DNA of 64,000 nucleotides from Rhodohalobacter sp. SW132 (GTDB lineage: Bacteria > Bacteroidota > Rhodothermia > Balneolales > Balneolaceae): contig NZ_QUOK01000004.1 in NCBI RefSeq assembly GCF_003390325.1, positions 248,001 to 312,000 on the forward strand, in the 5' to 3' direction. Made by a program: the position numbers and the translations under genes. Shown here in pieces: positions 28,245-64,000 of this stretch; position 1 is the stretch's first letter, and each line of letters opens with the position of its first letter. The notes beneath the pieces are model-generated. The model made no database searches. It was not told where the DNA came from and saw nothing but the letters and a program-made list of their open reading frames with translations.

Positions 28245-28253
28245 ATGACAGGT

Positions 28254-28793
28254 TTAAATTTTGGAATAAGAAGTAAACTTACCGGTAAGCTTAAATTCCT
28301 TACCTGATTTATTGCCATTCAATGTTACATCAAAGGATCCACTGACATAAGCTTGTGACACTTCCATAATTATCACCTCACCCGAAATGGATGAAACACG
28401 CTCTTTTGAGACAGCTTCATCACTGTTATTATCTTCATCATGTTCATCAGTATATGGCACTCCACATACCACTCCTGAACGGGGTTCTTCTTGAGAATTC
28501 GTGAGATATTCACCTTTTTTCAGGCCTTCATCTGACAATTTGAGTATATGAATACTGCAGATGACAGGCTCCGCGTCTTCCAGATAAAAAGAGATCATGC
28601 CCGGCATGGAAGAATAGGTGGATATTCCGGAGAATTGCATGTTATCCTCTCCATAAATCAGTGTGGCTTCAAAAACATTATCAGGTTTTTGGTCAGTAAT
28701 GTTATCGAAAAAAACTGTTATCATCGAAATAGCTGTCAGGCAGGCGATGACATATTTGAACCTAAAGATCACAGACATAATTATTTTCCTCAT
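28254..28793 (-). CDS. Small secreted protein of unknown function in the lyase operon
   Basis: This encodes 179 residues. A hydrophobic N-terminal segment (YVIACLTAISMITVFF) exports it. The rest is beta-rich, ending VSGSFDVTLNGNKSGKEFKL then TGKFTSYSKI, a pattern seen in lipocalin-like or DUF6252-like small proteins of Bacteroidota, but I do not assign a family. The start lies 5 nt after the stop of the upstream heparinase copy 2 and the end lies 9 nt before the DUF4962 gene, so it is translated with them; a glycan-binding role is possible. Confidence 0.6.
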   Translation of the reverse strand: MRKIIMSVIFRFKYVIACLTAISMITVFFDNITDQKPDNVFEATLIYGEDNMQFSGISTYSSMPGMISFYLEDAEPVICSIHILKLSDEGLKKGEYLTNSQEEPRSGVVCGVPYTDEHDEDNNSDEAVSKERVSSISGEVIIMEVSQAYVSGSFDVTLNGNKSGKEFKLTGKFTSYSKI

Positions 28794-28798
28794 ATCGG

Positions 28799-32848: not shown

Positions 32849-35800
32849 TCAAAAAGTTAACCTCACCCCCAAATCAAAAGATCTTCCGAAAAACTCTCTT
32901 TTTGTCGGAAAAACATCACTAAATAGTTGAGCAGCATCTGGTTCATTGGTAATGTTGTGCAGATTCAGATAGATGCTCAAATTTTCTCCAAACAGTTGCT
33001 GTCTGATCACAGCGTCAAACCGATTTAATTTTTGCGTATTGGAATCAAACTCGGGTTTCAATCCAACAGAAAACAGCTGGGGACCCTGGTGTAACATTGT
33101 TACACGGGCGGAAAAACCACGATAATCGTAACCTACTGAAATATTGGCGACATAATCTGGTTGTTGAGGCATACTGCCAACACGGAATGTATCAACTCTG
33201 ACAATACCTTCTGAGGTACGAATAGCCTCAGACCTTGGGTACTGAGTCTCCGTATTCATGGCAGTGATATTGGCGTTGATAACTATCCCATTAAATGGTG
33301 ATCTTAAAAACGTGAAATTACTTTGCCACTCAACTTCTAGTCCTCTTACATTTGTTTCAAGGGGATTATTAAATGGCTGCACAAGCTGATAATTACGTTC
33401 CGTTCGGCTCAGACCAAGTTCCTCATAGTCAGCTAGAATTCTCATCTCTCTCAAATAGATCAGATTATCAATTTCCTTATAAAATCCGCCGATTGTAAAC
33501 ATGCCAATCCGGTTACCAGAAAAAGTGAAAAATAGATCATAATTTATAGCTTCAGATGGCAACAGGCCCGGGTTTCCTCTTCGAACCCACCGGCCTTCCG
33601 GATTTATAGCTGAACGTGGAACCATTTCAGAAAAGCTTGGGCGGGAACTACTTTTGGTATATGCCATCCGAACCTGGAACCAATCAGTCATTTCATATCG
33701 CAGCTGAAACATCGGAAATATTTGATCGAAGTTTCTTGTCGCACTCGTATCTGCAACCCAGCCTGTATGATTTAAAGTACCGGACATTACACCATGAACT
33801 GCCTCATACTGGCCATCAGTTTGTTCATACCGAACACCGGGCATGAACATCAACCGTGATCCTATGTTCATTTCGGCCATAACATACGCCGCAGATATAC
33901 GCTCTTTACCTCCCTGATTGTCAGTCAGTGCAGACAGATCATCTACGAATCGACTTCTGTGAATATGATAAATAGAGTTTACCAAATCCCGGTCAAGTCC
34001 ATGGGGTAATCCAAAATTACCCAGAAACAGATTTTCTCTGCTATAATTTTCATCCACATAGTTAATCATGGAAATATTACCCAGATCGGTGGTGACCATT
34101 TCCCTGCCTTCTTCACTAATCAGGGTAGCATCATTGAAATTTGCCATAAATAGAGAGGTTAGCCTGTTATCACGGTCACGTGCTTTATCTAATATTTTCC
34201 CTCCAAATTTTAAATCACCCCGAAATAAATCGGAAACCGCCCAGGGCAGTGTTATATCTATCTGACCTATCGCATCTCTTTCCCTGGCATCAATTTCTGT
34301 TAAGTCGGTACGTCTCAATTCGGTATTGCGAAAATCATTATATGCAAAATCTGCCAGTGTGGTGATATCGCCTCTTAAATTAACCTCAGGTCGAAAGGCA
34401 TTTCGCTCACGAAATTCGGCATCGTGATCAAATGGATGATGTCGTGAAGAAACGCTATGGGACAATCGCCATTCCAGTTTTACATTATTCAGCGAAGGAA
34501 ACGAATGCTCCCCTGACAGTCTGGTTGAATATACATCCACTTCAATTTCTCGGGTTCGATAATGCCATTGTTGCCGGTTTTCAGCCAAAAGCAACCTACG
34601 CCTTAGCTCTCCTACATCTCTGTTGAGGCGGCTTGCAAATCCTGAAAGAAAGATTGTTCCATTCGGTATATGTATATCAAACATTAAACTCCCGCCAATT
34701 CGATCTCTTGTTTCGTTTGTAGCAAATACGTTCATATCACTTGTTTCAAGAGGAGCATGAGGTTCCCCGGCCCGCCTCGGCCTGACAACACTGTATGTTG
34801 TTAATAATTCATCAGAACTGCGGTCATTACGCTGTATATCAAAAGAACCAGCAAACCCAATTCGGTTTTCCCAGAACCGCCGGCTGCCGCTCACGGACGC
34901 ACCAAAATTCTCAAATGCCTCTACTTGCCCACTATACCCTCCTTTCAAGTTGAAACGGAGAAAAGATTCTTCAGGAATATTTGCAAGGTTAAAATTAACC
35001 GTGCCGCCAATCGCATCGGCATCCATATCCGGCCGGTTGGATTTATACAGTTCGATACCAGATAGCATTTCCTGTGAAATGAAATGTAAATCCACCGATC
35101 GCCCATCAAAGTCGGTGGAAGGAAGCCGTACACCATCGAAAGTAATGTTGTTATAACGGGAAGAGAGTCCCCTGATGGCAACATTTCTCGCTTCTCCGCC
35201 ATCCCGTACAATTGAAACACCCGGTAGCCTACCAAGTGATTCAGCAGCATTTGCATCAGCCAACTCTTTAAGACGGTCTTCCGATACAACATTAACAATA
35301 GAATTGGAGGAAAGCTGTGTTCGAATAGCCTGTGCTTGTCCAAGTGCCTGTGCACCGATAACTACCTCTTCACCTTCAACCTGATCCAGTTCAAGAGAAA
35401 TATTTCTTTCTATAGTCTCACCAGCAACAATAGTTATCTCAATATTCTTGGTTATATAGCCAAGGTAGCGTACAATAAGAATTAGCTCTCCGGCAGGCAG
35501 TCGTTGCAGAGTATATTCACCATCAATATTTGTAGCTGTACCAATAGATGTATCTTCTACCAGAATATTCGCTCCGAAAAGGGCTTCTCCTGTTGAAGCA
35601 TCTGTAACTCTACCTGTTATAGAACCGGTTTGCGCCTGTGAAATAGCATACGCCTCTAAATCAGAACGAAAACTACTCCGACTTCTCAGTAATACCAATT
35701 GCTGATTATTAGATATGGCAAACTGAAGTCCAGTATCATCCAGGATTTCCCAAAGTGCTTCATACACCGTAAAAGATTTGCCATCATACGAATATTTCTT

Positions 35801-36100
35801 TTCCTCCTGTAGAAGCGCTTTTCTGTACATTAATTTTAAACCTGCCTGATCTGCAACTGAATTCAATGCTTCTTCGAGTGTTGCGTTCTGCAGATGAAGA
35901 TTAATTACCTTATGAAGACGTGCATAAGCATCGCTGTCTTCTTTCGGCATTTGATTCTGAAACGCCAATATCTGCTCGCTGGTGCTGGTCGATTCTGAGT
36001 TTGAAACCTGTGCAGTAATACCAGGTACAACCATCAAAATCGCAACCAGAGCTGCTATGAATCGCACCAACATTGTTTGTAAGATTGTCCTCAAAATCAT
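32849..36100 (-). CDS. STN-domain TonB-dependent receptor/transducer
   Basis: This encodes 1083 residues. Signal peptide about 1-30; STN (secretin/TonB short N-terminal) signalling domain about 62-140 (LQNATLEEALNSVADQAGLK, FTVYEALWEILDDTGL); carboxypeptidase-regulatory-like domain about 155-240 (GSITGRVTDASTGEALFGAN); plug about 255-370 (IRGLSSRYNNITFDGVRLPS, DADAIGGTVNF); 22-strand barrel to the end with a terminal Phe (LGVRLTF). The plug resembles the Xanthomonas/Caulobacter-type receptors rather than SusC. It imports the oligosaccharide and relays its presence through the STN domain to FecR encoded 6 nt upstream. Confidence 0.9.
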   Translation of the reverse strand: MILRTILQTMLVRFIAALVAILMVVPGITAQVSNSESTSTSEQILAFQNQMPKEDSDAYARLHKVINLHLQNATLEEALNSVADQAGLKLMYRKALLQEEKKYSYDGKSFTVYEALWEILDDTGLQFAISNNQQLVLLRSRSSFRSDLEAYAISQAQTGSITGRVTDASTGEALFGANILVEDTSIGTATNIDGEYTLQRLPAGELILIVRYLGYITKNIEITIVAGETIERNISLELDQVEGEEVVIGAQALGQAQAIRTQLSSNSIVNVVSEDRLKELADANAAESLGRLPGVSIVRDGGEARNVAIRGLSSRYNNITFDGVRLPSTDFDGRSVDLHFISQEMLSGIELYKSNRPDMDADAIGGTVNFNLANIPEESFLRFNLKGGYSGQVEAFENFGASVSGSRRFWENRIGFAGSFDIQRNDRSSDELLTTYSVVRPRRAGEPHAPLETSDMNVFATNETRDRIGGSLMFDIHIPNGTIFLSGFASRLNRDVGELRRRLLLAENRQQWHYRTREIEVDVYSTRLSGEHSFPSLNNVKLEWRLSHSVSSRHHPFDHDAEFRERNAFRPEVNLRGDITTLADFAYNDFRNTELRRTDLTEIDARERDAIGQIDITLPWAVSDLFRGDLKFGGKILDKARDRDNRLTSLFMANFNDATLISEEGREMVTTDLGNISMINYVDENYSRENLFLGNFGLPHGLDRDLVNSIYHIHRSRFVDDLSALTDNQGGKERISAAYVMAEMNIGSRLMFMPGVRYEQTDGQYEAVHGVMSGTLNHTGWVADTSATRNFDQIFPMFQLRYEMTDWFQVRMAYTKSSSRPSFSEMVPRSAINPEGRWVRRGNPGLLPSEAINYDLFFTFSGNRIGMFTIGGFYKEIDNLIYLREMRILADYEELGLSRTERNYQLVQPFNNPLETNVRGLEVEWQSNFTFLRSPFNGIVINANITAMNTETQYPRSEAIRTSEGIVRVDTFRVGSMPQQPDYVANISVGYDYRGFSARVTMLHQGPQLFSVGLKPEFDSNTQKLNRFDAVIRQQLFGENLSIYLNLHNITNEPDAAQLFSDVFPTKREFFGRSFDLGVRLTF

Positions 36101-40302: not shown

Positions 40303-43300
40303 ATGAATAGCAATCTTCAAATCCGGCTTTTCGGTGCTTTTCATGTAATTTGTGAAAACAAGCCAGTACCCGGTTTGCACTCGATGCGGCTGCAAACATT
40401 ATTGGTATATCTGGTTTTAAACAGAGGTTCACCCCAATCTCGCCAACACCTCTCCTTTTGTTTTTGGCCCGATTCAACCGAAGCACAGGCAAGAACCAAC
40501 CTGAGACAGTTGCTGCATCGCCTGCGTAAGGCCATTCCTGATAACGATCGGTTTTTACTCTTAGACAAACAAACCGTTCAATGGAACCCCGAAAGCCCTT
40601 TTACCCTGGATGTGGCTGATTTTGAGCATGCTATCGACCAGGCAAAAAAGTTGGCAGATCAGCATGATCCTGCTGCAATGGCCAGGTCATTTGAGAAGGC
40701 TGCCGAACTCTACCGGGGCGATCTCTTTCCCGAATGTTACGAGGCGTGGATTGAGCCTTTCCGCACCGCTCTGAAAAAAAAATACACCGCGGCACTGCAA
40801 AAGCTAATCGAATATTTTGAAAACAACAGGCGCTATCAAAAAGCGATCAATTATGCCGAACGACTGCTAAATTGCGATAACCTGCAAGAAAAAACCTGGG
40901 AAGATCTGATGCGCCTACACGCGCTGAACGGTGACCGCTCAAAAGCACTCCGGTTATACAAAGAGTGTGAAGAGGTGCTTCAACAGGAACTCGCCGTTGA
41001 GCCTGCCCCGGAACTCCAAAAAACAGCCGAACGCCTGGCCGACGGAGAAATACCCGGTGGAGATGAATCGGATAAAGAACCCAAAACCGGAAAACAGCTT
41101 TCACCGGATTGGGATCTGGTGGGGCGAAAACATGAATGGAAAACCCTGCTTCACAACTGGAAGCAGGCATTGAATGGGGCTTGCCGGTTTGTCTGTATAT
41201 CAGGAGAGCCGGGGATCGGAAAATCCCGGCTGGGGCTGGAATTGCTGCATAACGTGAGAAGGCAGGGATATACAGCGGCCTATTCCAGATCTTATGAAAC
41301 TGCGGGAATGCTCAGTTACGGGCCGGTTGCCGGTTGGCTGCGTGAAGAAGGGTTTTACAAGCTATGGCCACGGCTGGATCCTGTTTGGCTAAAGGAATTA
41401 GCGCGACTGCTGCCTGAGCTGCTGGTTACCTTTCCCGAGCTTCCGCATCCCGGCCCTCTCAGTGAAAAATGGCAGCGGCGTCATTTTTTTGAAGCACTGG
41501 CAAAAGCGTTTCTATCCGAAGATAAACCCAAACTACTTTTCCTGGACGATCTTCAGTGGTGCGACCGGGAAACCCTGGAATGGCTGGCCTATCTGTTTCA
41601 TGTTGAGGAATCAGCGAAGCTGATGGTAATCGGGACCCTCCGTCCGATGGAAGGAGCGGCCAATGAATCCCTCCAAAACCTACTGACTGAATTGCGCAGC
41701 GCCGGCAGTATGACAGAGATCAATTTGGACGGCCTTGTCGAATCGGAGTCTTTGGAACTGGCCGCTCAGGTGATCGGGAGTGATATGAATCCCAATCCGC
41801 ATATTTTTAGAGAAAGTGAAGGAAATCCCCTCTTTGTTGTGGAGATGATCAGACAGGGGTATTTCAGGGGCGTGGAGTCCGGTTTTGAGAAACAGAAACC
41901 ATTGGCTGATTTGGATTCAGAACACTATAGCGAATCTATGCCACTTCCTCCGAAAGTAAATGCCATCATTTCCGCCCGGTTTGAACAGCTAACCGAAAAA
42001 ACCCGCGAGTTGATGTGGCTGGCCGCAGCCATCGGGCGTGAATTCAGATTTGATATCCTTGTGTATGCCTCCGGTCTGGAAGAGCCGGTTATCATTCGGT
42101 CACTGGAAGAACTTCTGCACCATCATATCATCAAAGAATTACGTTCCGGGGGGTACGACTTCAGCCACGATAAGCTGCGCGAAGTTGCTGCCCGTACCAT
42201 GACCAACACCCGGAAACGATATCTCCACAAACAGATCGCCGGGGCAATTGATGCCCTTCACAGCCATAACCTGAATGCCGTCAGCAGCCGGCTGGCTTTT
42301 CATTACGACCGTGCCGGTATGGTGGAGAAGGCCATTGCCTGGTACCAGACTGCCTCCGAACATGCCCGAGAGATCTATGCCAATGAAGAGTCCGAAATGC
42401 TGTTAAAACGGGCAGTTGAAATGCTAAACGAACTCCCGGAAGGGGATGAGCGTAATCGGCTGGAACGCGACCTTCAGACGGGGCTTGTACTCACACTGTT
42501 TCATATAAAAGGATACGGAGCGGATGAAGTCCTGGAAGCATGCGACCGGATCTTTTCCTTATCTGAAAACTTGAATGAGCGGTCTCCATTCCCTGTCAAA
42601 CGGATTTATGCCATTTCCATCTTAGTTCATGGCCGTATCGAAGAATCCGTACAGATCGGCAGGGAGTTATATGACCAGGCCATATCAACCGGAGACAACA
42701 TCGAACGTGTGGAAGCCTGTTATGTTTTGGGTGTAACACTTAGCAGGCAGGCCAGATTCGCTGAAGCCAAAAAATTTTTCCAGGAAGGGCTGGACTTGTA
42801 TAATCCCGGGGATCAGCAAGAGCACATTCTCCGATTTGGCCAGGATCCTTCTGTCGTCTGTATGGTTCGCCTGGCTATGGCGGAATGGCTGGCCGGAGAC
42901 AATGAAAAATCACAAAAGCTTGGAGATGAAGCTCTGCAACAGGCAACAAAAATAGATCACCCGTATACCCTGAATTATGTGAAGACCCACTTTGCCTGGC
43001 TCTGTAATCTTTCACACGATGTAAACGCCACAATAAAATTATCTGAAGAAGTTTTGGCAACCTCAAGCGATCATAGCTTTCCGGATTTTATGTCAATTTG
43101 TGAAATACTCAATGGGTACTCACAACATCGTTTGGGTTTTAAAGAAAAAGGAATTAATGGGATGCTGGAGGGGCTGCGGTTACTTGACCTTGCAGAAATT
43201 GGGATCGATCGTCCGTATTTCAGCAGCCTGGTTGCAGATGCGTTAAGTGATCAGGGAGAATGGGAGGAAGCGATGGCCATTTCGAACCGGGCTGTAAAAG

Positions 43301-43494
43301 AAAGTGAAGAGACCGGTTATCAGTGGATGCTGCCGGAGATATACCGAATCAGAGGGAATATTTACCTGAGAAAAAGTCCGCCGGATCTGGTGAACGCTCA
43401 AAAGAAATTACGAAAGGCCGTCTCCAAAGCCCGGAATCATAAAATGCCATTTCTTGAGCAGCGTGCCCGGGCCAACCTGAAAAATATACAATGA
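40303..43494 (+). CDS. BTAD/AAA-ATPase/TPR transcriptional regulator
   Basis: This encodes 1063 residues. Residues about 1-100 are a winged helix of the SARP/OmpR type (LQIRLFGAFHVICENKPVPG, LHSMRLQTLLVYLVLNRGSP). About 105-245 is the bacterial transcriptional activation domain (BTAD). The AAA ATPase part about 270-560 has Walker A CISGEPGIGKS (about 299-309) and Walker B KLLFLDDLQW (about 409-418). The last 450 residues are TPR-like helices (KAIAWYQTASEHAREIYANE). This is the layout of large AfsR/MalT-like signal-integrating activators. The gene stands directly upstream of, and in the same direction as, the oxidase/hydrolase/dehydrogenase cluster, so it is the likely pathway activator. Confidence 0.88.
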   Translation: MNSNLQIRLFGAFHVICENKPVPGLHSMRLQTLLVYLVLNRGSPQSRQHLSFCFWPDSTEAQARTNLRQLLHRLRKAIPDNDRFLLLDKQTVQWNPESPFTLDVADFEHAIDQAKKLADQHDPAAMARSFEKAAELYRGDLFPECYEAWIEPFRTALKKKYTAALQKLIEYFENNRRYQKAINYAERLLNCDNLQEKTWEDLMRLHALNGDRSKALRLYKECEEVLQQELAVEPAPELQKTAERLADGEIPGGDESDKEPKTGKQLSPDWDLVGRKHEWKTLLHNWKQALNGACRFVCISGEPGIGKSRLGLELLHNVRRQGYTAAYSRSYETAGMLSYGPVAGWLREEGFYKLWPRLDPVWLKELARLLPELLVTFPELPHPGPLSEKWQRRHFFEALAKAFLSEDKPKLLFLDDLQWCDRETLEWLAYLFHVEESAKLMVIGTLRPMEGAANESLQNLLTELRSAGSMTEINLDGLVESESLELAAQVIGSDMNPNPHIFRESEGNPLFVVEMIRQGYFRGVESGFEKQKPLADLDSEHYSESMPLPPKVNAIISARFEQLTEKTRELMWLAAAIGREFRFDILVYASGLEEPVIIRSLEELLHHHIIKELRSGGYDFSHDKLREVAARTMTNTRKRYLHKQIAGAIDALHSHNLNAVSSRLAFHYDRAGMVEKAIAWYQTASEHAREIYANEESEMLLKRAVEMLNELPEGDERNRLERDLQTGLVLTLFHIKGYGADEVLEACDRIFSLSENLNERSPFPVKRIYAISILVHGRIEESVQIGRELYDQAISTGDNIERVEACYVLGVTLSRQARFAEAKKFFQEGLDLYNPGDQQEHILRFGQDPSVVCMVRLAMAEWLAGDNEKSQKLGDEALQQATKIDHPYTLNYVKTHFAWLCNLSHDVNATIKLSEEVLATSSDHSFPDFMSICEILNGYSQHRLGFKEKGINGMLEGLRLLDLAEIGIDRPYFSSLVADALSDQGEWEEAMAISNRAVKESEETGYQWMLPEIYRIRGNIYLRKSPPDLVNAQKKLRKAVSKARNHKMPFLEQRARANLKNIQ

Positions 43495-43609: not shown

Positions 43610-44992
43610 ATGAATAAAAACAATGTTGAGAACCTGAAAACTGCACTAAGGGGAAAACTCGTTCAGCCGGGTGACACTGAATATGATGAAGCAAGAAAAA
43701 TATATAATGAAATGATCGACCGGGAACCCCGGTATATCATCTATTGCCAAAATACATCGGATGTGATCTCAGCCGTCAATTTTGCAAGGGAAAACAGTAT
43801 TCGAACCTCCATTCGCAGTGGCGGTCACAACGGCCCCGGGCTGGCGTTGGTGGACGACGGTCTGGTGATCGATCTTTCAAGAATCGACTTTACTCATGTC
43901 GATCCACAGAAAAAAACGGTGCTGGTCGGAGGCGGCGCCACCTGGGGGCAGGTCGATCACGCCACCCACGCATTTGGCCTGGCTCTGCCAAGCGGGATTG
44001 TATCTACAACCGGTGTCGGAGGGCTTACCCTGGGCGGCGGTCACGGCTACCTGACCCGAAAGTACGGTCTGACCATCGACAACCTGCTAAGTGCAGACGT
44101 GGTACTGGCCGACGGTAGTTTCGTCCACGTAAGCAAAGACGAAAACCCGGATCTGTTCTGGGCTTTGCGCGGCGGCGGCGGCAACTTTGGTGTGGTTACT
44201 TCCTTCGAATATCAATTACACCCTGTCAAAAATGTCGTCGCAGGCCCCCTGTTCTGGCCTATCGACAAACTGGAGCCCACCCTGAAGTGGTACCGGGAGT
44301 GGCTGCATCAACTGCCGGAGGATGTGTATGCTTTTTATCTGACGGCCGCCGTTCCCGCGGGCGATCCCTTCCCCCAGGCAATCCACGGCGAGAAAGTATG
44401 CGGGTTGCTCTGGTGCTATACCGGGCCGGAAGATCAATTTGACGGCTTCATTCAACAGGCACGTGATGTTGCCGAACCGCTGTTTGAATTCACTCCGGAA
44501 ATGCCTTACCCGGCGCTACAAAGTATGTTCGACGGACTCTATCCCCCAGGCTACCAGTTGTACTGGAAAGGCGATTTTGTAAAGGAGATCCCGGATGAAG
44601 CCGTTGCCGAACACCTTCGGTTTGCAGAGGTACCCACCCCACTATCAACCATGCATCTTTATCCGGTAGATGGAGCTGCACATAAACCCGATAAACATGA
44701 TACCGCCTGGAATAATCGCGATGCTATCTGGTCGATGGTGATCGTAGGAGTGGATCCGGACCCGAAAAACAACGAAATGATGACAAATTGGGCCCGGGAT
44801 TACTGGGAAGCCCTTCATCCTTACACCCTCGGTGGGGCCTACATTAATTTTATGATGGAGGAAGGAGAAGATCGCATCAAAGGTACCTACGGGGATAACT
44901 ATGAAAGGCTTCAGAAAGTGAAAGACAAATACGATCCGGATAATTTTTTCAATGTGAATCAGAATATTGAGCCGGCATCGATTTCGGTTTAA
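43610..44992 (+). CDS. FAD-linked oxidase (berberine-bridge-enzyme-like)
   Basis: This encodes 460 residues; GGAG precedes ATG 43610. The FAD-binding PCMH domain spans about 30-210: IRSGGHNGPG carries the His that takes the 8-alpha-histidyl FAD bond, with GGGATWGQVDHATHAFGLAL and VGGLTLGGGHGYLTRKYGLT after it. The position where bicovalent enzymes have the flavinylated Cys reads LTIDN, so only the His link is expected. A C-terminal BBE segment is present (YGDNYERLQKVKDKYDPDNF then FNVNQNI). It oxidises alcohols or sugars with oxygen as acceptor. No signal peptide, so cytoplasmic. First enzyme gene of the cluster. Confidence 0.9.
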   Translation: MNKNNVENLKTALRGKLVQPGDTEYDEARKIYNEMIDREPRYIIYCQNTSDVISAVNFARENSIRTSIRSGGHNGPGLALVDDGLVIDLSRIDFTHVDPQKKTVLVGGGATWGQVDHATHAFGLALPSGIVSTTGVGGLTLGGGHGYLTRKYGLTIDNLLSADVVLADGSFVHVSKDENPDLFWALRGGGGNFGVVTSFEYQLHPVKNVVAGPLFWPIDKLEPTLKWYREWLHQLPEDVYAFYLTAAVPAGDPFPQAIHGEKVCGLLWCYTGPEDQFDGFIQQARDVAEPLFEFTPEMPYPALQSMFDGLYPPGYQLYWKGDFVKEIPDEAVAEHLRFAEVPTPLSTMHLYPVDGAAHKPDKHDTAWNNRDAIWSMVIVGVDPDPKNNEMMTNWARDYWEALHPYTLGGAYINFMMEEGEDRIKGTYGDNYERLQKVKDKYDPDNFFNVNQNIEPASISV

Positions 44993-48042: not shown

Positions 48043-50154
48043 ATGAAAACAGGAAATCAAACCTACTCTAAGAGATACCCTCTTTTATTCACTTCAATTT
48101 TAATTATCGTTGCATCATGTGCCGATGATCCGGAAATATTTCCGGCATCAGAATCAGTAGTCAACACGGAGCGGATTATGGCTGCTGCGGTTGAACCGGG
48201 CAACTGGCTGACCCACGGCGGATCGTACAACGAACTTCGGTTCAGCGAACTTGATCAAATCAACCGGGAGAATGTAGACCGGCTTGGCCTGGCCTGGAGC
48301 TATGACTTTTCAATGCGCGGGGGTGTGCAGGCCACACCGTTGGTAGTGGATGGAATTATGTATCTGACTGGCCCGTGGAGTACGGTCTATTCGATGGATG
48401 CCCGAACGGGCGAACTTTTATGGCAGTACGACCCGGATGTGCCGCGGCTTCAGGGGCTTAAACTATGCTGTGGGATGGTAAACCGTGGAGCGGCACTCTA
48501 TGAAGGAAAAGTATATGTAGGAACGCTGGATGCCCGGTTGATTGCACTTGATAAAGAAACCGGGGAGTTGGTGTGGGAAACGGTAACAGCAGATGCTGAT
48601 ATTGGATATTCAATTACCGGCGCCCCGCGTGTGTTTAACGGAAAGGTGGTGATTGGCAACGGCGGGGCTGAATTTGGCGGTGTACGCGGATATGTAACCG
48701 CCTACGATGCAGAGACGGGAGATCAGTTGTGGCGCACCTATACGGTGCCTGGGAACCCGGCAGATGGATTTGAGTCAGACGCCATGGAATATGCCGCTGA
48801 AACGTGGACCGGAGAATGGTGGAAATTTGGAGGCGGTGGAACCGCTTGGGATTCCATTGTCTACGATCCTGAACTCGACCTGCTGTATGTGGGAGTAGGA
48901 AACGGTTCGCCATGGAACCGTCTGGTACGCAGCCCCGATGGCGGGGACAACCTGTTTCTGGCTTCAATCATGGCACTTGATCCGGATACCGGTGAACTCG
49001 TATGGTATTATCAAAACACACCCGGTGAAACCTGGGATTTCACGGCCACACAGCCGATGATCCTCACCGGCCTTGAAATTAATGGTGAGGAGCGGCAAGT
49101 GCTTATGCAGGCTCCGAAGAATGGATTTTTTTATGTGCTCGACCGCGCTACCGGGGAGCTAATTTCGGCTGAACCTTTTGTTCCCGTCAACTGGGCCAGC
49201 CACTTAGACATGGAAACCGGCAGGCCTGTAGAGCTGCCGGAGGCGCGTTATGAGGATGCGCCCTTTATCATGACACCCAGTCACCTTGGAGGACACAACT
49301 GGCACCCGATGTCTTTTAACCCGCAAACAGGCCTCGTTTACATTCCTGCCCAAGTGACTTGGAGGAGGTATGCACATGATACGGAGTTCGCATTTAGGGA
49401 AGGAGAGATTGCTCTGGGAGTAGCGAGCTCACGTGAACCGACACCCCCGTCAAGTGGGCATCTGCTTGCCTGGGATCCAGTGGAACAAGAAGAACGATGG
49501 CGTGTCCCTCGCGAGGACATGTTAAATGGAGGAGTACTCTCTTCCGCCGGAGATCTTGTTTTCCAGGGCCGGGGAAGCGGGGAATTTTCCGCATACGATG
49601 CGTACAACGGAACACTATTGTGGGAGTATTCATCCGGGCTCGGCATTATTGCACCGCCAGTAACCTACAAAATTGATGGTACACAGTATGTGACCGTGGC
49701 GGCAGGTTGGGGTGGAATGGGTCCCATGGGCCGGATAACAGCCCCGCCGGGTGAAGCATCGAACTACGAACAGCGTGGCAGGGTCATGACTTTCGCTCTC
49801 GACCACGACGAGCCCCGCCCGCCGCTCAGCCCGAGTGCTAAGATACCCGATCCGGACGAGCTTGATCTTGACGTACTCGGACTCCCGGATGACACAAGTT
49901 CTTTAGAGCGTGGAGAAACCCTCTTCGCTGCCAGCTGTTCTCATTGCCACGGGCCAACAGGCGATGCCCGGGGCTCCATGCCAAGCCTCTTGCGAATGCC
50001 GGCCGAATCTCACCAGGCATTTCAGCAGATTGTCAGGCAGGGTATTTTTGAGCCGATAGGAATGCCTGATTTTGGCGAGCGCCTATCCGAAGAAGAGGCA
50101 ACACTTATACACGCCTGGATCATCTCGGAGATAGAAGCAAGCGCAGATAATTAA
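48043..50154 (+). CDS. PQQ-dependent quinohemoprotein dehydrogenase
   Basis: This encodes 703 residues with a lipoprotein signal (FTSILIIVASCADD). The eight-bladed PQQ propeller has the W-motifs and GLKLCCGMVNRGAALY with the adjacent-Cys disulfide that stacks on PQQ. NGSPWNRLVRSPDGGDNLFL and WDFTATQPMILTGLEINGEE are typical of type II alcohol dehydrogenases. The C-terminus (from about 615) is a cytochrome c domain with CSHCH at about residues 631-635 and a candidate Met axial ligand in GMPDFGE. It oxidises primary or secondary alcohols in the periplasm and passes electrons to the respiratory chain. Last gene of the cluster. Confidence 0.92.
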   Translation: MKTGNQTYSKRYPLLFTSILIIVASCADDPEIFPASESVVNTERIMAAAVEPGNWLTHGGSYNELRFSELDQINRENVDRLGLAWSYDFSMRGGVQATPLVVDGIMYLTGPWSTVYSMDARTGELLWQYDPDVPRLQGLKLCCGMVNRGAALYEGKVYVGTLDARLIALDKETGELVWETVTADADIGYSITGAPRVFNGKVVIGNGGAEFGGVRGYVTAYDAETGDQLWRTYTVPGNPADGFESDAMEYAAETWTGEWWKFGGGGTAWDSIVYDPELDLLYVGVGNGSPWNRLVRSPDGGDNLFLASIMALDPDTGELVWYYQNTPGETWDFTATQPMILTGLEINGEERQVLMQAPKNGFFYVLDRATGELISAEPFVPVNWASHLDMETGRPVELPEARYEDAPFIMTPSHLGGHNWHPMSFNPQTGLVYIPAQVTWRRYAHDTEFAFREGEIALGVASSREPTPPSSGHLLAWDPVEQEERWRVPREDMLNGGVLSSAGDLVFQGRGSGEFSAYDAYNGTLLWEYSSGLGIIAPPVTYKIDGTQYVTVAAGWGGMGPMGRITAPPGEASNYEQRGRVMTFALDHDEPRPPLSPSAKIPDPDELDLDVLGLPDDTSSLERGETLFAASCSHCHGPTGDARGSMPSLLRMPAESHQAFQQIVRQGIFEPIGMPDFGERLSEEEATLIHAWIISEIEASADN

Positions 50155-50413: not shown

Positions 50414-51721
50414 ATGGACTTTAAAATTGCTTTTACCGATAAAGAAATCACCCCCTGGGGCGGCATTCTTTTGATGAAAAAGATGCTCGATCGTATGGAT
50501 TTTGATGGATGCCTGGACAGGCTGCCCCTGCCGGCTCAGGGATCCAACCGGGGGTACTCGCCACACCAGCTGATCAAACAGTTTATGTGCAGTGTGTGGT
50601 GCGGAGCCAACCGGTTTGAACACACCGAGGTCACCCGGGCCGACGAGGTCGTGCGCCAGCTTTGGGGTTTTCAGCGTATGGCCGGCCATAAAGCCTTTCA
50701 GCGGTATTTTGCCAAGTTTGATCAGGGTGATAATCAGCGGGTGTTTACGCAGATGTACCAGTGGTTCTTCAGCCAGCTGCAGTTCGATAAGTACACCCTG
50801 GATGTAGATTCCACGATCCATACGCGCTACGGGAATCAGCAGGGAGCCAAAAAGGGATACAATCCCCGCAAGCCGGGCCGCCCTTCCCATCATCCGCTGA
50901 TGGGGTTTGTGGCCGAGACGAACATGGTGGCCAATTATTGGCAGCGCAGCGGCGATGCTCACACGGCCAATAATCTGGAGGGGTTCCTGGCCGACACGGT
51001 CAGCAAGCTGGCAGGCAAAACTATTGGCTTGCTGCGCGCCGACAGCGGTTTTTACAGCAAATCGGTCTTTGACTACCTGGAGGGCGAGGCCATTGACTAC
51101 ATTGTTGCCGCACCGATGTACGCCCCGCTGCAACGACTGCTGGGCGGCCACAAGACCTGGTGGCGCCTGGCCGATGGGCTGGAGATTGGCGAGTCGGTCT
51201 ACCAGAGCCCGCTGTGGCAGGCGCCTCGCCGGGTGGTGATGGTTCGCCAGCACGTGCCCACACGCCCTAAAGCCACAGGGCGTCAGCTGCGGCTGTTTGC
51301 CGAGCAGGGAATCTGCAAGAACTATCGCTACAGCTGTTATATCACCAGCCTGGATCTGTCGCCGGAGCTGGTCTGGGAGCTGTATAAAAAACGCGCGGAT
51401 GCTGAAAACCACATCAAGGAGCTCAAATACGACTTTGGGTCCGGCAGCTTTAACATGCAGGGATTTTTTGCGACCGAAGCAGCCTTAAACGTGGTGATGA
51501 TGGCGTACAACTTCATTAGCCTGTTCCGGCAAGTGATCCTTCAGTCAAAAATAAACCATCAGCTAAAAACCCTGCACTACCAGATCTTCAACATTGGTGG
51601 GTATCTGACCAAAAACGGAAACCAGAGGATACTGAATCTATCGCTGGCCATGAAACGCCGCGAATGGTTTACCGGACTGTGGATGAACACCAGCAAATTC
51701 ACCGTACCCCTGAGAATCTAA
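50414..51721 (+). CDS. IS1380-family DDE transposase
   Basis: This encodes 435 residues, full length for the family. The catalytic Asp/Asp/Glu can be placed at TLDVDSTIHTRYGNQQGAKK (first Asp), IGLLRADSGFYSKSVFDYL (second Asp) and ADAENHIKELKYDFGSGSF (Glu). The PGRPSHHPLMGFVAET box after the first Asp is typical. The frame is intact, so the copy may still be active. Confidence 0.92.
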   Translation: MDFKIAFTDKEITPWGGILLMKKMLDRMDFDGCLDRLPLPAQGSNRGYSPHQLIKQFMCSVWCGANRFEHTEVTRADEVVRQLWGFQRMAGHKAFQRYFAKFDQGDNQRVFTQMYQWFFSQLQFDKYTLDVDSTIHTRYGNQQGAKKGYNPRKPGRPSHHPLMGFVAETNMVANYWQRSGDAHTANNLEGFLADTVSKLAGKTIGLLRADSGFYSKSVFDYLEGEAIDYIVAAPMYAPLQRLLGGHKTWWRLADGLEIGESVYQSPLWQAPRRVVMVRQHVPTRPKATGRQLRLFAEQGICKNYRYSCYITSLDLSPELVWELYKKRADAENHIKELKYDFGSGSFNMQGFFATEAALNVVMMAYNFISLFRQVILQSKINHQLKTLHYQIFNIGGYLTKNGNQRILNLSLAMKRREWFTGLWMNTSKFTVPLRI

Positions 51722-58319: not shown

Positions 58320-58894
58320 GTGTTTTCCAGCGCTCCGAGCGAAGCGATTCCCACGAAGTGAAATTTATCCCTCTGCTTCGTTTTATATGGGAACTTACTC
58401 CTTCGGATATGAACTCTCGACCATCCCAAGCTGTATCTATTATCTAAGTTCATCCCAATTATGTCAATACTCTGAAAGCTGTCCATTGGCCACGCCAAAA
58501 CAGAATAATTTCCATCAATATCATGACCGAAAAATTCTCCTTCTCCCGTTCCGGAAACCTCTAACCGCACCGTTGCGTGGTTGTCTGCCCCCACGACATG
58601 AATAGATTAGAGTGTTACATCAGGAAAGGTACTCCAGTATTCCTCAATCATGTTTAAATATGCATTAAGCTTCATCTCATCTCCGGATAGAATAAACGGA
58701 TCTGTCAGAATTAATTATATCGCAGAGCGGTCTTGTTCGTTAAATGCTTCAACAAACTGCATAGCAAGCTCTTCATTCTGGGATGCGGCCGTTTCACTAT
58801 CAGCCTGCTGCCATGATTAAGCGGCCAGTGCGATACAGGTAACGAGGCATATAATTATAGTGTTAAAGTGTGATAATCTGTTTTATGTATTCAT
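58320..58894 (-). pseudogene. Decayed SnoaL-like protein gene
   Basis: From ATG 58894 the minus strand reads a signal (NTIIICLVTCIALAA), stop, then QQADSETAASQNEELAMQFV, EAFNEQDRSAI, stop, LILTDPFILSGDEMK, and after another stop VVGADNHATVRLEVSGTGEG and EFFGHDIDG. At least four stops interrupt it. It aligns with the first domain of the intact gene 60085-61005 (QQADREAAAAQHEELATSYV, TGTGEGEYHGHDISG), so it is a dead paralogue. Homology is unclear below about 58500. Confidence 0.75.
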
Positions 58895-59032
58895 GGTTTA
58901 GTTATTTAGCAGATCGAACGTACCCGTCCGGCAGCTATGCACAGCGATGTATTCTCAATTCGAAACAGTCGAAGTTTTAGCTTCGATCTGCATTGCTAGC
59001 CTCTTAATGAATTAGAGACAAAGCTCCGGTAG

Positions 59033-59953
59033 TTACGGCGCGATGGTGACATCTTTCAGGACTCCTACATTCCAGTAGTTGAATCCGCGCACGAACAGAT
59101 ACCGGCCCGGCTCGAGGTCAACAGTAAAATAGCCGGTCGTACCCGGCTGAAGTGCGTGCATTCCACCAATGAACGAGGCCGGAGCGGGATGGCGGAGGCC
59201 ATTCACCGCGAACCAGTCCATCCACTCAGCCACCTCCCGGACATCTTTGTCACCATCAATTTTTGCAATGTGCACGTTATCACCCTCCTGATCCGCAGTA
59301 ACACTGAAGGTCAGATTGCCCGCCGAAAGATCGCCGTTCATCACTATTGAGTCATCGGTGAATACAATCTCGATATCAGCTTCCGGTGGTTGAGCCTCTG
59401 AGTTATGACCGCTCACGACAAGCTCCCGTACCATACCTTCCATCAGGTGAAATTCGCCATCTTCGTCCTTTATGTAACACTCCAGTACGTATGTGCCGGG
59501 TTCCATATAGAGCATCACTTCGGTGGAAAGGCCGGGCGCTACGATACCGGAGCCGCCGCGGTACTCGTAGCCGACTTCGATCTCGCCCTCCTCAAACATC
59601 TCGAAGACTTTCCCGAGGGCCTCCTCCTGTCCGATGTGTCCTTCGCGGTGAGCAATCCAGGCATCATTCACCGGCGGAAGCACACCTTCCGTATAATCCT
59701 CGAACGTCCACCCCTCATCCAGAAGTAGGGGCACGAAAAAGTGCTCTTCATCGCCTTCATTTGTGAAGTGAAAGGCCGTCCATCCTGATGGTATCTCATC
59801 AGGGGCATCAAACGCATAATCCATCGCGATAATTTCCACCATGTTCGAATGGCCAGATTTATCTGAACCTGAGTAATACTGTGCAATCCCCGCATTAAAA
59901 GTCCATGCAATAATCAGTAGTAAATTGATAAGTAGTTTAAGCCAAGTTTTCAT
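59033..59953 (-). CDS. Two-domain cupredoxin-like secreted protein (paralogue A)
   Basis: This encodes 306 residues with a signal peptide (LLINLLLIIAWTFNAGIAQ). Domain 1 (about 35-180) has the type 1 copper ligand set: His in DEEHFFVPLLL, then Cys, His and Met in YVLECYIKDEDGEFHLMEGM, spaced C-x9-H-x4-M, longer between Cys and His than in azurin or plastocyanin. Domain 2 (about 190-306) has NVHIAKIDGD and PGRYLFVRGFN but no Cys, so it is probably copper-free. It shares this plan with 61147-62076 and with the gene cut at the right edge. Likely a periplasmic electron carrier or copper protein for the nearby multicopper oxidase (inference). Confidence 0.75.
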   Translation of the reverse strand: MKTWLKLLINLLLIIAWTFNAGIAQYYSGSDKSGHSNMVEIIAMDYAFDAPDEIPSGWTAFHFTNEGDEEHFFVPLLLDEGWTFEDYTEGVLPPVNDAWIAHREGHIGQEEALGKVFEMFEEGEIEVGYEYRGGSGIVAPGLSTEVMLYMEPGTYVLECYIKDEDGEFHLMEGMVRELVVSGHNSEAQPPEADIEIVFTDDSIVMNGDLSAGNLTFSVTADQEGDNVHIAKIDGDKDVREVAEWMDWFAVNGLRHPAPASFIGGMHALQPGTTGYFTVDLEPGRYLFVRGFNYWNVGVLKDVTIAP

Positions 59954-60084
59954 GATTATACTCCGTTCTTTTATTATTAGATATTAACTTTTCTTAGCGA
60001 GATGGTTGCCAGCTTGTTTTTTTAATCTCTACTCATAAGGATACGGACTCTCCATTACGCCAAGTTGTGTCCATAAAACAAACC

Positions 60085-61005
60085 TCAGATTTCGCCGCGC
60101 TCCGGGCCGTATGCCCCCTCGCCGGGCAACGGGGTGCCCTGCCAGCCCGCCATCTGCCAGCGGCCGTCCTCTTTTTCCCAGATCATCGTGTGGCGCACGA
60201 CGGCTGTACCCTCATCCTCGGGATCCACCCACTTCGAGCGTCCGGTGACCACGGCGGTGTCCCCGAACTGCCGGACGCGCGTCTCGTCGTTGACGATCTC
60301 CTCCATAAAAGGAAACCGGCCAGCCTCGACGATCTCCACTGCTTCCTGCTTATCGGAGTAGCTGGCGTCGGCGTTGATGGCAAGTAAATCCTCGGAATAC
60401 AGCCGATCAATGGCCCCGGCGTCTCCCGGCAGCTCAAAGGCATCGAACACTTCGCGCTCCAGTCGTTGCAGAGTCTCATCGTCCTGGTTGGAGCTGACGG
60501 GTGAGATCTCCACGGCGGCGATCTGCTCCCAGAGATCGAGATCGTCTCTTTCTACGTGCATCCTAGCAATTTGGCCTTCTTGCACGCCAAGCAGAATGAT
60601 CTCCGTTACTTCGAACTCCTGGCCGCTGATGTCATGGCCGTGATACTCGCCCTCGCCGGTGCCAGTAAGTACGCCGCAAACCGTCACGTAGTCCTCGGCG
60701 GTCAAAACATGGGTGGGATCAAACTGCATATCCGGGAAGATCTCCCAGCCCCCTTCTACGTGATCGAGGAAGGCCTCGCGTGTCATTTCTTGCTCCCCGT
60801 AGGTAAACGGATCGGTAATGACATCTTCCAGTGCCTCGCGGTCTTGGGTGTTAAGGGCCTCGACGTAGCTGGTGGCCAGCTCTTCGTGTTGGGCTGCAGC
60901 TGCTTCACGATCAGCCTGCTGGCATGATGAAGCGATAAATACCAAGCCAAGAAGAAATGTTAAAAATATTACGACTGGATTTGAAGAAGTGATTAGTTCA
61001 TTCAT
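60085..61005 (-). CDS. Tandem SnoaL/DUF4440-like (NTF2-fold) lipoprotein
   Basis: The frame opens at 61089, but ATG 61005 starts a lipoprotein signal (NPVVIFLTFLLGLVFIASSC), giving 306 residues. Domain 1 (about 35-150): EELATSYVEALNTQDREALE, FPDMQFDPTHVLTAEDYVTV and GTGEGEYHGHDISGQEFEVT, the ester-cyclase/SnoaL pattern. Domain 2 (about 165-300): EVFDAFELPGDAGAIDRLYS, DLLAINADASYSDKQEAV and HTMIWEKEDGRWQMAGWQGT, a DUF4440-type fold. Two NTF2-like folds in one chain form an internal pseudo-dimer. The gene is visibly G+C-richer than its neighbours. Role unknown; small-molecule isomerase/cyclase or binding. Confidence 0.8.
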   Translation of the reverse strand: MNELITSSNPVVIFLTFLLGLVFIASSCQQADREAAAAQHEELATSYVEALNTQDREALEDVITDPFTYGEQEMTREAFLDHVEGGWEIFPDMQFDPTHVLTAEDYVTVCGVLTGTGEGEYHGHDISGQEFEVTEIILLGVQEGQIARMHVERDDLDLWEQIAAVEISPVSSNQDDETLQRLEREVFDAFELPGDAGAIDRLYSEDLLAINADASYSDKQEAVEIVEAGRFPFMEEIVNDETRVRQFGDTAVVTGRSKWVDPEDEGTAVVRHTMIWEKEDGRWQMAGWQGTPLPGEGAYGPERGEI

Positions 61006-61057
61006 GATCTTGTTATTTGTGTCTTTATAATTCCTATCCGAAAATTTTGGAATCCAA

Positions 61058-61132
61058 GACGTTGTCAGGAACCTCACTTCGTTCAGCACGCTGACAGGTC
61101 GTTTATTTTACCTCGAATACTCCCATCATTCC
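61058..61132. repeat. 75-bp duplicate of the multicopper oxidase 3' end (remnant)
   Basis: This stretch matches 62166-62240 with about seven differences in 75 bp. On the minus strand it still encodes the last residues GMMGVFEVK plus a stop (GMMGVLEVK in the intact oxidase) and the following downstream sequence with its CTGTCAG/CTGACA-like inverted repeat. It is the scar of a second oxidase gene, otherwise deleted, between the cupredoxin-like gene and the SnoaL gene. Confidence 0.85.
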
Positions 61133-61146
61133 CCGGTATACTCAAT

Positions 61147-62076
61147 TCATTCAACTGTAAATGCCTTATAAAGACCCTCGCCCTGAGATACAAATACAAC
61201 CCATGCATATTCCCCGGGTTCTGTGATATCCAGAGAAAAGTATGCGGTGTCAACATCACTCACGAATCCGAAACCTCCTAGGAATTCAACAGGTGAGGGT
61301 GATCTCAATCCGCCAACTTTATACCAATCCATCCATTCGTTCACTTTATCCAGGTTTGTTTCTTCATCCATGCGAACCAGGTGTACATTGTTGTGAAAGA
61401 ATTGTCCTGCCGGATTCCGACTGAATTCAAGTGCAAAGGCATGGGTGCCTGTTTCCGGTTCCCAGTCTACTTCAATTTCATTTTCATGCAGGGTAATTTG
61501 TGATTCTCGATTTGGTTCAGGTGTGTTTGCAGCTTCTTCCATCACGGTGAACTCCCAATGCATTCCCTCAATAATATGGATGACTCCATCCTCAGTTTTC
61601 AGCCAACAGACCATCATATATTCTCCCGGTTCCAGGTAAACCGTTCTTTCTGCACTTCTGCCGGGAGATGTCAGCCCGCGGGTTGTTGAATACCGAACAT
61701 CACCTGACCAGGCAGGCAGCATCTCATTCACTCTGTCATTGATTCCCGCGCGCTCTACTACGCCTTCCTGGTATTCACGTAGTACGGTTTCCCAGGCACT
61801 CATATAGTCCGTAAGGTATTCTTCATGTGTGGCTTCATTAGGAAGCTGAACCAGACTTATTTCATGGATATTACTGGCCATTTGATTATTCAAAATAAAT
61901 GTGATCCATCCGGTTGGAAGTTCATTGGGTGCATCAATGTCAAAAGCGTGGTCCAGGGCTTCTACATGAACAATCGATGGCTGGTTCTGTGCGGCTGCGT
62001 TATCAACTTTCAAAAGCCCCATGCCCATAATAATGATTGAAATGATTTGAATTATAATTCTGTGAGAATGTGACAT
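61147..62076 (-). CDS. Two-domain cupredoxin-like secreted protein (paralogue B)
   Basis: This encodes 309 residues with a signal peptide (IIQIISIIIMGMGLLKV). Domain 1 has His in SNIHEISLVQL and the Cys/His/Met loop YMMVCWLKTEDGVIHIIEGM, again C-x9-H-x4-M. A helical insertion lies between them (DYMSAWETVLREYQEGVVER). Domain 2 carries NNVHLVRMDEE, VNEWMDWYKVGGLRSPSP and PGEYAWVVFVS without Cys. It is the direct downstream neighbour of the multicopper oxidase (gap about 130 nt), supporting a shared redox role. Confidence 0.75.
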   Translation of the reverse strand: MSHSHRIIIQIISIIIMGMGLLKVDNAAAQNQPSIVHVEALDHAFDIDAPNELPTGWITFILNNQMASNIHEISLVQLPNEATHEEYLTDYMSAWETVLREYQEGVVERAGINDRVNEMLPAWSGDVRYSTTRGLTSPGRSAERTVYLEPGEYMMVCWLKTEDGVIHIIEGMHWEFTVMEEAANTPEPNRESQITLHENEIEVDWEPETGTHAFALEFSRNPAGQFFHNNVHLVRMDEETNLDKVNEWMDWYKVGGLRSPSPVEFLGGFGFVSDVDTAYFSLDITEPGEYAWVVFVSQGEGLYKAFTVE

Positions 62077-62165
62077 TGTATTTCTTTTTTGGGTTAAGAT
62101 TTCTGTTATAGTTTCGCTTTACACCTGTTGATTTTGCTTGCTTACTGGTTCTAATTTTTACATGC

Positions 62166-62240
62166 GACGCTGTCAGGAACCTCTCTCCGTTCGGCACGCT
62201 GACAAGTCGCTTATTTTACCTCTAATACTCCCATCATTCC
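62166..62240. repeat. 75-bp segment at the multicopper oxidase 3' end, partner of 61058-61132
   Basis: It holds the last 30 bp of the intact oxidase gene and the sequence just after it, including CTGTCAG and CTGACA as a possible hairpin. The duplicate 1.1 kb downstream preserves both the coding tail and the hairpin arms. Confidence 0.85.
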
Positions 62241-63671
62241 TTGGTCTTCGTGATCCAATATGTGGCAGTGGAACATCCACTTGCCGGGATAGTTGTCGTA
62301 TCGCACAATGAAGCGGGCCGATTCGAAACCGGGCACATTAACAGTGTCTTCCCATTTTCGTTGTGAGACCGGCTCACCGTTGCGGTCAATCACCTGGAAC
62401 TGAAAGCCGTGAAGGTGGAACGGGTGGTCCATTCCAACCAGGTTTCGGATATCCCAGATTTCGGTGGCTCCCAGCTCCGCGGTTTCATCCACCCGGTTCA
62501 TATCCATCGTTTTGCTGTTGATTTTGCCGTTGGACATCCTCATGACTCGTGTTTCGGTTACGTCATCAACATTCAGTTCAGGAATTTTCCGAAGGGATTC
62601 CGGCATTTCAAAAGGTTCCTGAACAGAAGATTCATCCGTATACCGCAGAGTGAGCAGATCATTCTTTTCATCCCAGTTCGATGGGCGAAACATCGGCATG
62701 TAGCGGTCATACGGCAAATCCTGAAGTGTTATTTCACTTCCCGGATCACCAGTACCATGAACAAGCAGTTCAGCTCGTTCACCGTTTGAGAGAATGATTT
62801 CGTCCACTTCTTTTGGGCGCTCAAACAGTCCGCCGTCGCTGCCTATATGAGTAAAGGTGTGCCCATCAAGTGCCAGCCGATAAATTCGGGCACCGGATGC
62901 ATTTACGATCCGCCAGCGCTGAGTTTCCCCGCTTTGGATAGAGAGCTCGGGCATGATTCCATCATTCACGAAAAGCACGTCCCCCTCGCGGCCGTTCATA
63001 TCGTCCACGCGTTCCTGACGTGAGCCGGGCTCAGCGAACTCGATCTCCCCGTCCTCGTCAAACCGGTTGTCGGATAAAATCAGTAAGTGTTCGGTCAGAG
63101 TATCAGGCAGCGGATCATCGGGATCGCGGATGATGATGCCGCCGTAAAGACCCATCCCTACCTGCCAGGCTGTGTGATGGTGCGGGTGCGGATGGTACCA
63201 GTAGGTTCCTGCCGTCCCTTCATGGATTCTGAATGTATAGGTGAAGGTTTCGCCCGGTTCAACGGGATGGAACGGGCTGCCGTCCATCACAAAAGGAAGG
63301 TGAATGCCGTGCCAGTGCACGGTGGTTTTTTCGGGCAGGTTGTTTTTGAAGTGAATAATCACACTGTCACCTTCCGATGCTTCCAGAAGCGGGCCGGGCA
63401 CACGCCCGTTGTAGGCATAGACATCGGTTTCAATGCCTGGCACGAGCGAAATACGCTCTTTGGATGCCGTCAGTTCCACCTCCACAATGCCCGGTTCGGA
63501 TGAGATGTTCTCCAGAACGGGATGGCCGGCAATCGTATCTTCAGTGACTGCCTCAGAGTCGGAATGAGAAGGGCCCATTTCTCCGGCCATACTGATTGCG
63601 GAGAATGATAATATTGGCAAGATTACTGCCGGGAAAAAACTTTTTGAAGTAAGTAATTTCAAATACCTCAT
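62211..63671 (-). CDS. Multicopper oxidase (laccase-like)
   Basis: The frame opens at 63875, but ATG 63671 (MRYLKLLTSKSFFPAVILPI) begins a signal peptide and gives 486 residues. All four copper motifs are present in order: HWHGIHLPF (about 150), YWYHPHPHHHTAWQVG (about 190), DHPFHLHGFQFQV (about 420) and FHCHILDHEDQGMMG (about 470), with Cys in the last for the type 1 site and Met as axial ligand. Three cupredoxin domains. It is a periplasmic oxidase for phenols or metals (Cu, Mn); CueO- or laccase-like, but no Met-rich copper-tolerance segment is evident. It lies between two cupredoxin-like paralogues. Confidence 0.93.
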   Translation of the reverse strand: MRYLKLLTSKSFFPAVILPILSFSAISMAGEMGPSHSDSEAVTEDTIAGHPVLENISSEPGIVEVELTASKERISLVPGIETDVYAYNGRVPGPLLEASEGDSVIIHFKNNLPEKTTVHWHGIHLPFVMDGSPFHPVEPGETFTYTFRIHEGTAGTYWYHPHPHHHTAWQVGMGLYGGIIIRDPDDPLPDTLTEHLLILSDNRFDEDGEIEFAEPGSRQERVDDMNGREGDVLFVNDGIMPELSIQSGETQRWRIVNASGARIYRLALDGHTFTHIGSDGGLFERPKEVDEIILSNGERAELLVHGTGDPGSEITLQDLPYDRYMPMFRPSNWDEKNDLLTLRYTDESSVQEPFEMPESLRKIPELNVDDVTETRVMRMSNGKINSKTMDMNRVDETAELGATEIWDIRNLVGMDHPFHLHGFQFQVIDRNGEPVSQRKWEDTVNVPGFESARFIVRYDNYPGKWMFHCHILDHEDQGMMGVLEVK

Positions 63672-63744
63672 ACTATTATGGTTATTTTGATTGGAATGGT
63701 GGATTATCGATTTTAAATATTCGGTATCAACGGAGGCGACGAGC

Positions 63745-64000
63745 CTACGGGTCGATGGTAACTTCTTGCCACACATCACGATCGTACGTGAGTTGCGAGA
63801 TGAAGAGGTATCGGCCAGGCTCCAGATCAAGTGTAAAATACCCTTTCCCGCCCTCGGGCAGTTGATGGATGCCACCGATGAACGTAGTTGGCGCAGGTGG
63901 CCAAAACTGCTCCAGGTTGAAGGGCGTCATCCAGTCGATGATTTCCTGCATCTCTGTATCGGTCTCGATGCGGGCTACATGTACGTTGTGACCAAACTCT
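63745..64000 (-). CDS. Cupredoxin-like protein (paralogue C), C-terminal part only
   Basis: The frame runs in from beyond the right edge and stops at 63745; about 85 residues are visible. EFGHNVHVARIETDTEMQEI, then FIGGIHQLPEGGKGYFTLDL and EPGRYLFISQLTYDRDVWQE match domain 2 of the paralogues at 59033-59953 and 61147-62076. By analogy its missing part should carry the copper-binding first domain. It precedes the multicopper oxidase by about 75 nt. Confidence 0.85.
   Translation of the reverse strand, partial: EFGHNVHVARIETDTEMQEIIDWMTPFNLEQFWPPAPTTFIGGIHQLPEGGKGYFTLDLEPGRYLFISQLTYDRDVWQEVTIDP

Follow-up and report, generated by a model that had tools for sequence, protein, structure and literature searches.

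The 64,000-nt stretch analysed here (the window) covers positions 248,001 to 312,000 of contig NZ_QUOK01000004.1 (C4) of Rhodohalobacter sp. SW132. Between 58.3 and 64 kb it carries a minus-strand cluster that combines a laccase-like multicopper oxidase (MCO) with several copies of a two-domain cupredoxin-like protein, here termed CUP. The first-pass annotation had read the gene order as CupC (cut by the window edge), the MCO, CupB, an oxidase scar, a SnoaL tandem, CupA and a dead SnoaL gene, and our analysis confirmed this order. Chance was excluded as its origin because homologous genes occur in the same arrangement in other genomes. The conserved MCO-CUP cluster, with its previously unnamed putative copper protein, is a real, unstudied system. 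Our interpretation, which we judge to have an even chance of being correct, is that it would be a horizontally mobile, extracytoplasmic copper redox module in which the CUPs serve the MCO as mobile one-electron carriers. The features within the window are as follows.

63745-64000, minus strand: 3' part of CupC, class I; the full gene spans L008:7746-8660, equivalent to window positions 63745-64659.
62211-63671, minus strand: three-domain laccase-like MCO, 486 aa from the ATG, with a Sec-type signal, assigned by Pfam and its motifs.
62166-62245, minus strand: repeat partner of the scar, consisting of the genuine MCO 3' end and the intergenic DNA that follows.
61147-62076, minus strand: CupB, two-domain cupredoxin-like protein, class II, 309 aa; predicted type-1 copper ligand codons, also on the minus strand, H71 (61866-61864), C157 (61608-61606), H167 (61578-61576) and M172 (61563-61561).
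61058-61137, minus strand: oxidase scar, a duplicated MCO 3' end plus intergenic DNA, 89% identical to 62166-62245.
60085-61005 (from the ATG), minus strand: tandem SnoaL (PF07366) and DUF4440 putative lipoprotein with two NTF2-fold domains and the lipobox FIASSC; accessory.
59033-59953, minus strand: CupA, two-domain cupredoxin-like protein, divergent class I with the same ligand set, 306 aa.
About 58405-58850, minus strand: SnoaL pseudogene, interrupted by three in-frame stops and with a change of frame close to the 3' end.

A 554-aa open reading frame for the MCO, starting at 63875, would overlap CupC, and the ATG start gives the 486-aa protein; for the SnoaL tandem, an alternative GTG start is possible at 61089. 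The sequence past position 64,000 was read from segment L008 (C4:304000-323999; window coordinate = L008 + 55999, the window being C4:248001-312000). There the module continued with the rest of CupC, CupD, a SnoaL-family lipoprotein, CupE and a second dead SnoaL gene, so that the whole locus holds five intact CUP genes (A to E), one MCO, and both intact and dead SnoaL genes. The earlier description of three paralogues around one oxidase was thus right in that several CUPs per oxidase is a conserved arrangement, although the true count is five here and seven in the genome. At the module's other end, past the window edge, L008:11400-12500 contains the second SnoaL pseudogene and an intact DUF4440 gene. 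A search for Rfam RNA families gave no match in the window.

A second, shorter module lies on contig C5 and comprises two CUPs, a single SnoaL gene and an MCO sharing 89% identity with that of the window, which brings the genome to seven CUPs and two MCOs of this subtype. The scar suggests that CupB entered an ancestral MCO-SnoaL junction like that on C5, the end of the MCO gene being duplicated in the process. A hairpin-like pattern 3' of the MCO was not called a dispersed repeat because it has only three exact matches in the genome.

The CUPs form a cupredoxin-like family that Pfam and NCBIfam fail to recognise in Bacteroidota, and they are annotated as "hypothetical protein" wherever annotation was seen. 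CupA and CupB fell below the Pfam Cupredoxin_1 cut-off and 13 of 35 relatives were weak matches (best E 3.7e-5), whereas one Deinococcus homologue exceeded it (31.5 vs 27 bits). The predicted type-1 copper ligands were almost perfectly conserved: in an alignment of 93 CUPs the columns were H70 (92/92), C156 (93/93), H166 (93/93) and M171 (92/93), and all four residues were invariant in a 35-CUP alignment whose other members are 27-63% identical to CupE. Each of the seven CUPs encoded in this genome has the ligand set. In 90 of the 93 sequences the ligands followed the pattern C-x9-H-x4-M, with an unusually long loop, in the first of the two cupredoxin domains. In the second domain, the Cys, His and Met were usually lost, and two members had a plastocyanin-spaced C-x2-H-x4-M there. 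Both domains look intact in two Deinococcus plasmid proteins and in Gemmatirosa, and only domain 2 does in D. ficus; we read this pattern as pointing to an ancestral pair of copper domains that may later have undergone complementary loss. Values of dN/dS of about 0.06-0.2 indicated purifying selection. Four tandem CUP relatives were also found in G730 (L152:10588-15286); they are divergent from an MCO-CUP pair, some have the axial Met replaced, and three of the four are longer (416-429 aa) and probably have three domains.

An AlphaFold2 model of CUP consisted of two beta-sandwich domains (pLDDT 86.7, pTM 0.81) with the predicted Greek-key arrangement of the cupredoxin fold. Its structural matches were cupredoxins, MCOs and nitrite reductases, with Z at most 7.2; domain 1 resembled auracyanin (Z 7.2) and domain 2 azurin (Z 6.6). 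Auracyanin and azurin share the H/C/H/M ligand set with the CUPs, but they are single-domain proteins with sequence identities of only about 13-22% and have shorter ligand loops. The best solved relative of the CUP family profile was the nitrite reductase AniA; the match was weak (E 0.0085), with the CUP Cys, His and Met falling on the AniA type-1 ligands. AniA/NirK likewise has two cupredoxin domains and, in the first, a type-1 site in which a long loop between Cys and His leads to H-x4-M. However, the CUP loop is x9 against x7 in AniA, and the CUPs lack the His before the ligand Cys and hence the type-2 copper site: Glu stands at this position (155), where the type-2 His is needed, in 80 of 93 CUPs, and His in one. 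A copper nitrite reductase was therefore ruled out, as was a two-domain laccase, there being no type-2/3 His pattern.

Another related protein is the green cupredoxin AcoP of Acidithiobacillus ferrooxidans, for which we know of no pairing with an MCO of the CUP-associated kind. AcoP has an extended loop (Cys-x6-His-x4-Met) and works in a chain with other cupredoxins, but it is a single-domain protein whose loop is shorter than that of the CUPs (PMC4059628). The same study discusses longer ligand loops in relation to green copper sites, and its three cupredoxins in one respiratory chain provide a precedent for several such proteins acting together (PMC4059628). From the long CUP ligand loop and this analogy, a green or perturbed type-1 spectrum would be predicted for the CUPs.

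Similarity to EfeO, a cupredoxin-like iron-uptake protein (PMC9174327), raised another explanation, namely that oxidation of Fe(II) or Mn(II) by the CUPs and the MCO serves metal uptake or the formation of minerals, as in Fet3p/Ftr1p or EfeUOB. Weak similarity was seen in 14 of 35 CUPs (best E 2.9e-6), around the PG..T..L.PGEY...C strand of the EfeO cupredoxin-like domain, and the soda lakes from which several carriers appear to derive are poor in soluble iron. However, the matches were confined to the first CUP domain, and CupE scored 18.3 bits against a curated cut-off of 270, so that the CUPs were rejected as EfeO proteins. They also have no M75 domain and are not near EfeU or EfeB; neither an M75 domain, a permease nor a DyP peroxidase was recognised at the loci inspected. 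We regard a metallo-oxidase or metal-uptake role as improbable.

The MCO passed the Pfam cut-offs for Cu-oxidase_3, Cu-oxidase and Cu-oxidase_2 by a wide margin, and its copper motifs (HWHG, HPH, HPFHLHG and HCH-x3-H-x4-M) were intact in all nine copies. The MCO gene of L091 runs over two frames, a split that may stem from misassembly. The closest relatives in the PDB were the Thermus thermophilus laccase (2xu9 and 9cpm) and then 3zx1, both of which aligned end to end with the MCO and share all its copper motifs; we know of no CUP-family partner for either. Cupredoxin and MCO also occur as a unit in MCOs with a fused C-terminal cupredoxin (9cck from Nitrosopumilus; L158 and L160 from Deinococcus), but the cupredoxins of the window are separate and multicopy and its MCO is of the three-domain laccase type.

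The best NCBIfam model for the MCO was CueO, and this bears on the main competing explanation, copper homeostasis, in which the MCO would be a cuprous oxidase and the CUPs would buffer copper or load the enzyme, so that the periplasm is protected as in CueO, PcoA/PcoC or CopA/CopC systems. Two copper proteins paired without an obvious substrate gene alongside, the expansion of CUP paralogues, which would suit binding or buffering, and the dispensable and mobile nature of the module would all fit such a role. However, the MCO scored 268 bits against the CueO equivalog cut-off of 525, and was rejected as CueO; it was also under the CopA cut-off, and the MCO proteins have just 15-19 Met each. Neither a copper ATPase nor CopC, CusF or CusABC was noticed adjoining the module, most neighbours having had no domain scan. 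Known copper carriers have open Met/His sites, from which the closed H/C/H/M type-1 site differs. On balance we consider copper homeostasis unlikely.

The association of the two families was assessed from searches with the MCO as query only, because the CUP alignment subset (A3) selects MCO-linked CUPs; it rests on eight loci, several of them in fragmented metagenome-assembled genomes (MAGs). Of the order's 129 genomes, 7 carried the MCO subtype (at least 64% identity), at these eight loci, and all eight adjoined CUPs. In contrast, the 13 MCOs from 98 relatives whose identity did not exceed 40% all lay away from CUPs. In G001, one more CUP-MCO pair is truncated where the contig ends. At L009 the start of the MCO gene and the stop of the CUP gene overlap, and up to six CUPs, one of them broken, were found at a single locus (L086), which indicates that several paralogues per oxidase is a general feature. 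On Deinococcus plasmids, two of three CUPs adjoin a different type of MCO, with a fused cupredoxin domain, and we take this as independent support for the CUP-MCO association.

In phylogenetic analysis of 92 CUPs, 19 class I CUPs, each encoded at an MCO locus, formed one clade (100/99), and five class II CUPs of the CupB type fell into another (100/100). Each clade joined Balneolales with CUPs of Salegentibacter tibetensis and Gillisia, which lie far from the remaining CUPs of flavobacteria. RpoB of this genome is 60.7% identical to that of S. tibetensis whereas the MCO reaches 77.9%, and joint transfer of the MCO and CUPs into Flavobacteriaceae is therefore the simplest account; the cluster has thus moved between bacteria of salt lakes. 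The named carriers of the module are Flavobacteriaceae and MAGs that, judging by their sample names, come from sediments and brine of soda lakes. L086 (LKNA01000102.1) is labelled Chitinophagaceae, but its sequence is that of a G734 contig, and G734 is placed in the family of the window genome; the label looks wrong. Within one large flavobacterial family, CUPs were present in 58 of 299 sampled genomes (about a fifth), and a search of the same 299 genomes for the MCO subtype found none; the subtype is thus rare there, although two named Flavobacteriaceae carry it.

These data bear on the possibility that fast-duplicating CUPs merely travel with the MCO without a joint function. Most CUPs in the phylum stand alone, CUP and MCO genes are both small and mobile, and the locus is rich in duplications and relics. 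However, the MCO subtype adjoins CUPs at eight of eight loci in the order, two classes of CUP were transferred along with it, the genes can overlap, and CUPs pair independently with another MCO type in Deinococcus. All this argues against coincidence, which we consider very improbable.

Type-1 copper sites are electron-transfer sites. A strictly kept type-1 site on predicted secreted proteins, encoded beside or, at L009, overlapping a putative O2-reducing oxidase, suggests that the CUPs are electron carriers for that oxidase. In such a module, each secreted tandem cupredoxin would bind a single type-1 copper through its N-terminal domain (His...Cys-x9-His-x4-Met), the C-terminal domain being probably a degenerate copy. 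Encoded and probably co-expressed with a laccase-like MCO that would reduce O2 to water, the CUPs would take up electrons from a donor, either a substrate or the respiratory chain, and pass them on to the MCO's type-1 copper; the paralogues would serve different donors or potentials. The sequences show the gene content, the conserved ligands, the adjacency to the oxidase, the purifying selection and the transfer of the module; the fold is a prediction, and copper binding, the transfer and direction of electrons, and the division of labour among paralogues are inferred. The first-pass annotation had proposed dedicated electron donors or copper carriers, and the former fit both the ligand set and the adjacency, so that this proposal is partly supported. 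Its further idea that the module oxidises phenolics or metals and processes the product is speculation.

Several observations weigh against electron transfer to the MCO. Adjacency and co-transfer would fit copper supply or copper detoxification equally well. Structural Z scores below 8 may reflect a common arrangement only, and some CUP domains in G730 lack the axial Met. Most CUPs in Flavobacteriaceae and most in Balneolaceae have no MCO of this subtype beside them; since CUPs are common without it, this MCO cannot be their general partner and other partners must exist. A hybrid two-component sensor was found near CUPs at 14 loci, but it was not accepted as a partner because its position and distance differ between loci. 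A broader proposal, which we put forward only tentatively, is that the CUPs are a cross-phylum family of tandem-domain type-1 proteins (Bacteroidota, Balneolota, Deinococcota and Gemmatimonadota) with the longest natural Cys-His loop among those compared, which would act as separate and exchangeable donors of electrons to two MCO types, with sets of paralogues tuned to different donors.

The tandem SnoaL protein passed both Pfam cut-offs (PF07366, 65.2 vs 28.4 bits; PF14534, 85.1 vs 25.2 bits), whereas the SnoaL-family protein between CupD and CupE keeps the DUF4440 half only. Their lipoboxes mark the SnoaL proteins as probable lipoproteins, and one is under purifying selection (dN/dS about 0.1). 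All three families also occur together in L090 and L091, two further assemblies of Balneolaceae. However, the SnoaL association was seen only there and, twice, in this genome, and no SnoaL gene stood next to the MCO in G072, L086/G734, G730, Salegentibacter tibetensis and Gillisia, whose loci were readable far enough. NTF2-fold proteins were therefore not retained as a core component, as had been supposed, and the SnoaL lipoproteins appear to be a lineage-specific accessory. A literature search on cupredoxin, MCO and SnoaL together, and on Balneolaceae and MCO, found nothing.

Members of a BTAD-type regulator family (L009:11245-14826) are divergent neighbours of CUPs at eight loci, and two BTAD regulators lie upstream of the Deinococcus aetherius CUP (L159); BTAD-type proteins may take part in regulation of the module. 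Large BTAD/TPR transcriptional regulators are encoded at L009:11245-14826 and at window positions 40303-43494, each followed by a gene for a FAD/berberine-bridge-type oxidase, a possible oxidase partner (window 43610-44992, by Pfam; L009:14967-16343, by similar appearance). About 9 kb from the module, window positions 48043-50154 encode a beta-propeller dehydrogenase of the PQQ type that is fused at its C-terminus to a cytochrome c domain and might supply electrons in the periplasm, and a DDE transposase gene (PF13701) at 50414-51721, about 7 kb away, gives a mobility context. Farther off, three heparinase II/III family genes (20798-30961) near a TonB-dependent receptor (32849-36100) form a polysaccharide-utilisation-like cluster.

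The CUPs are a predicted copper-protein family that escapes Pfam and NCBIfam in those 58 of 299 flavobacterial-family genomes, and their long ligand loop gives a clear spectroscopic prediction. MCOs are usually thought to draw electrons directly from small substrates; if the proposed role is true, protein donors encoded beside MCOs would change how the substrates of these enzymes are sought.

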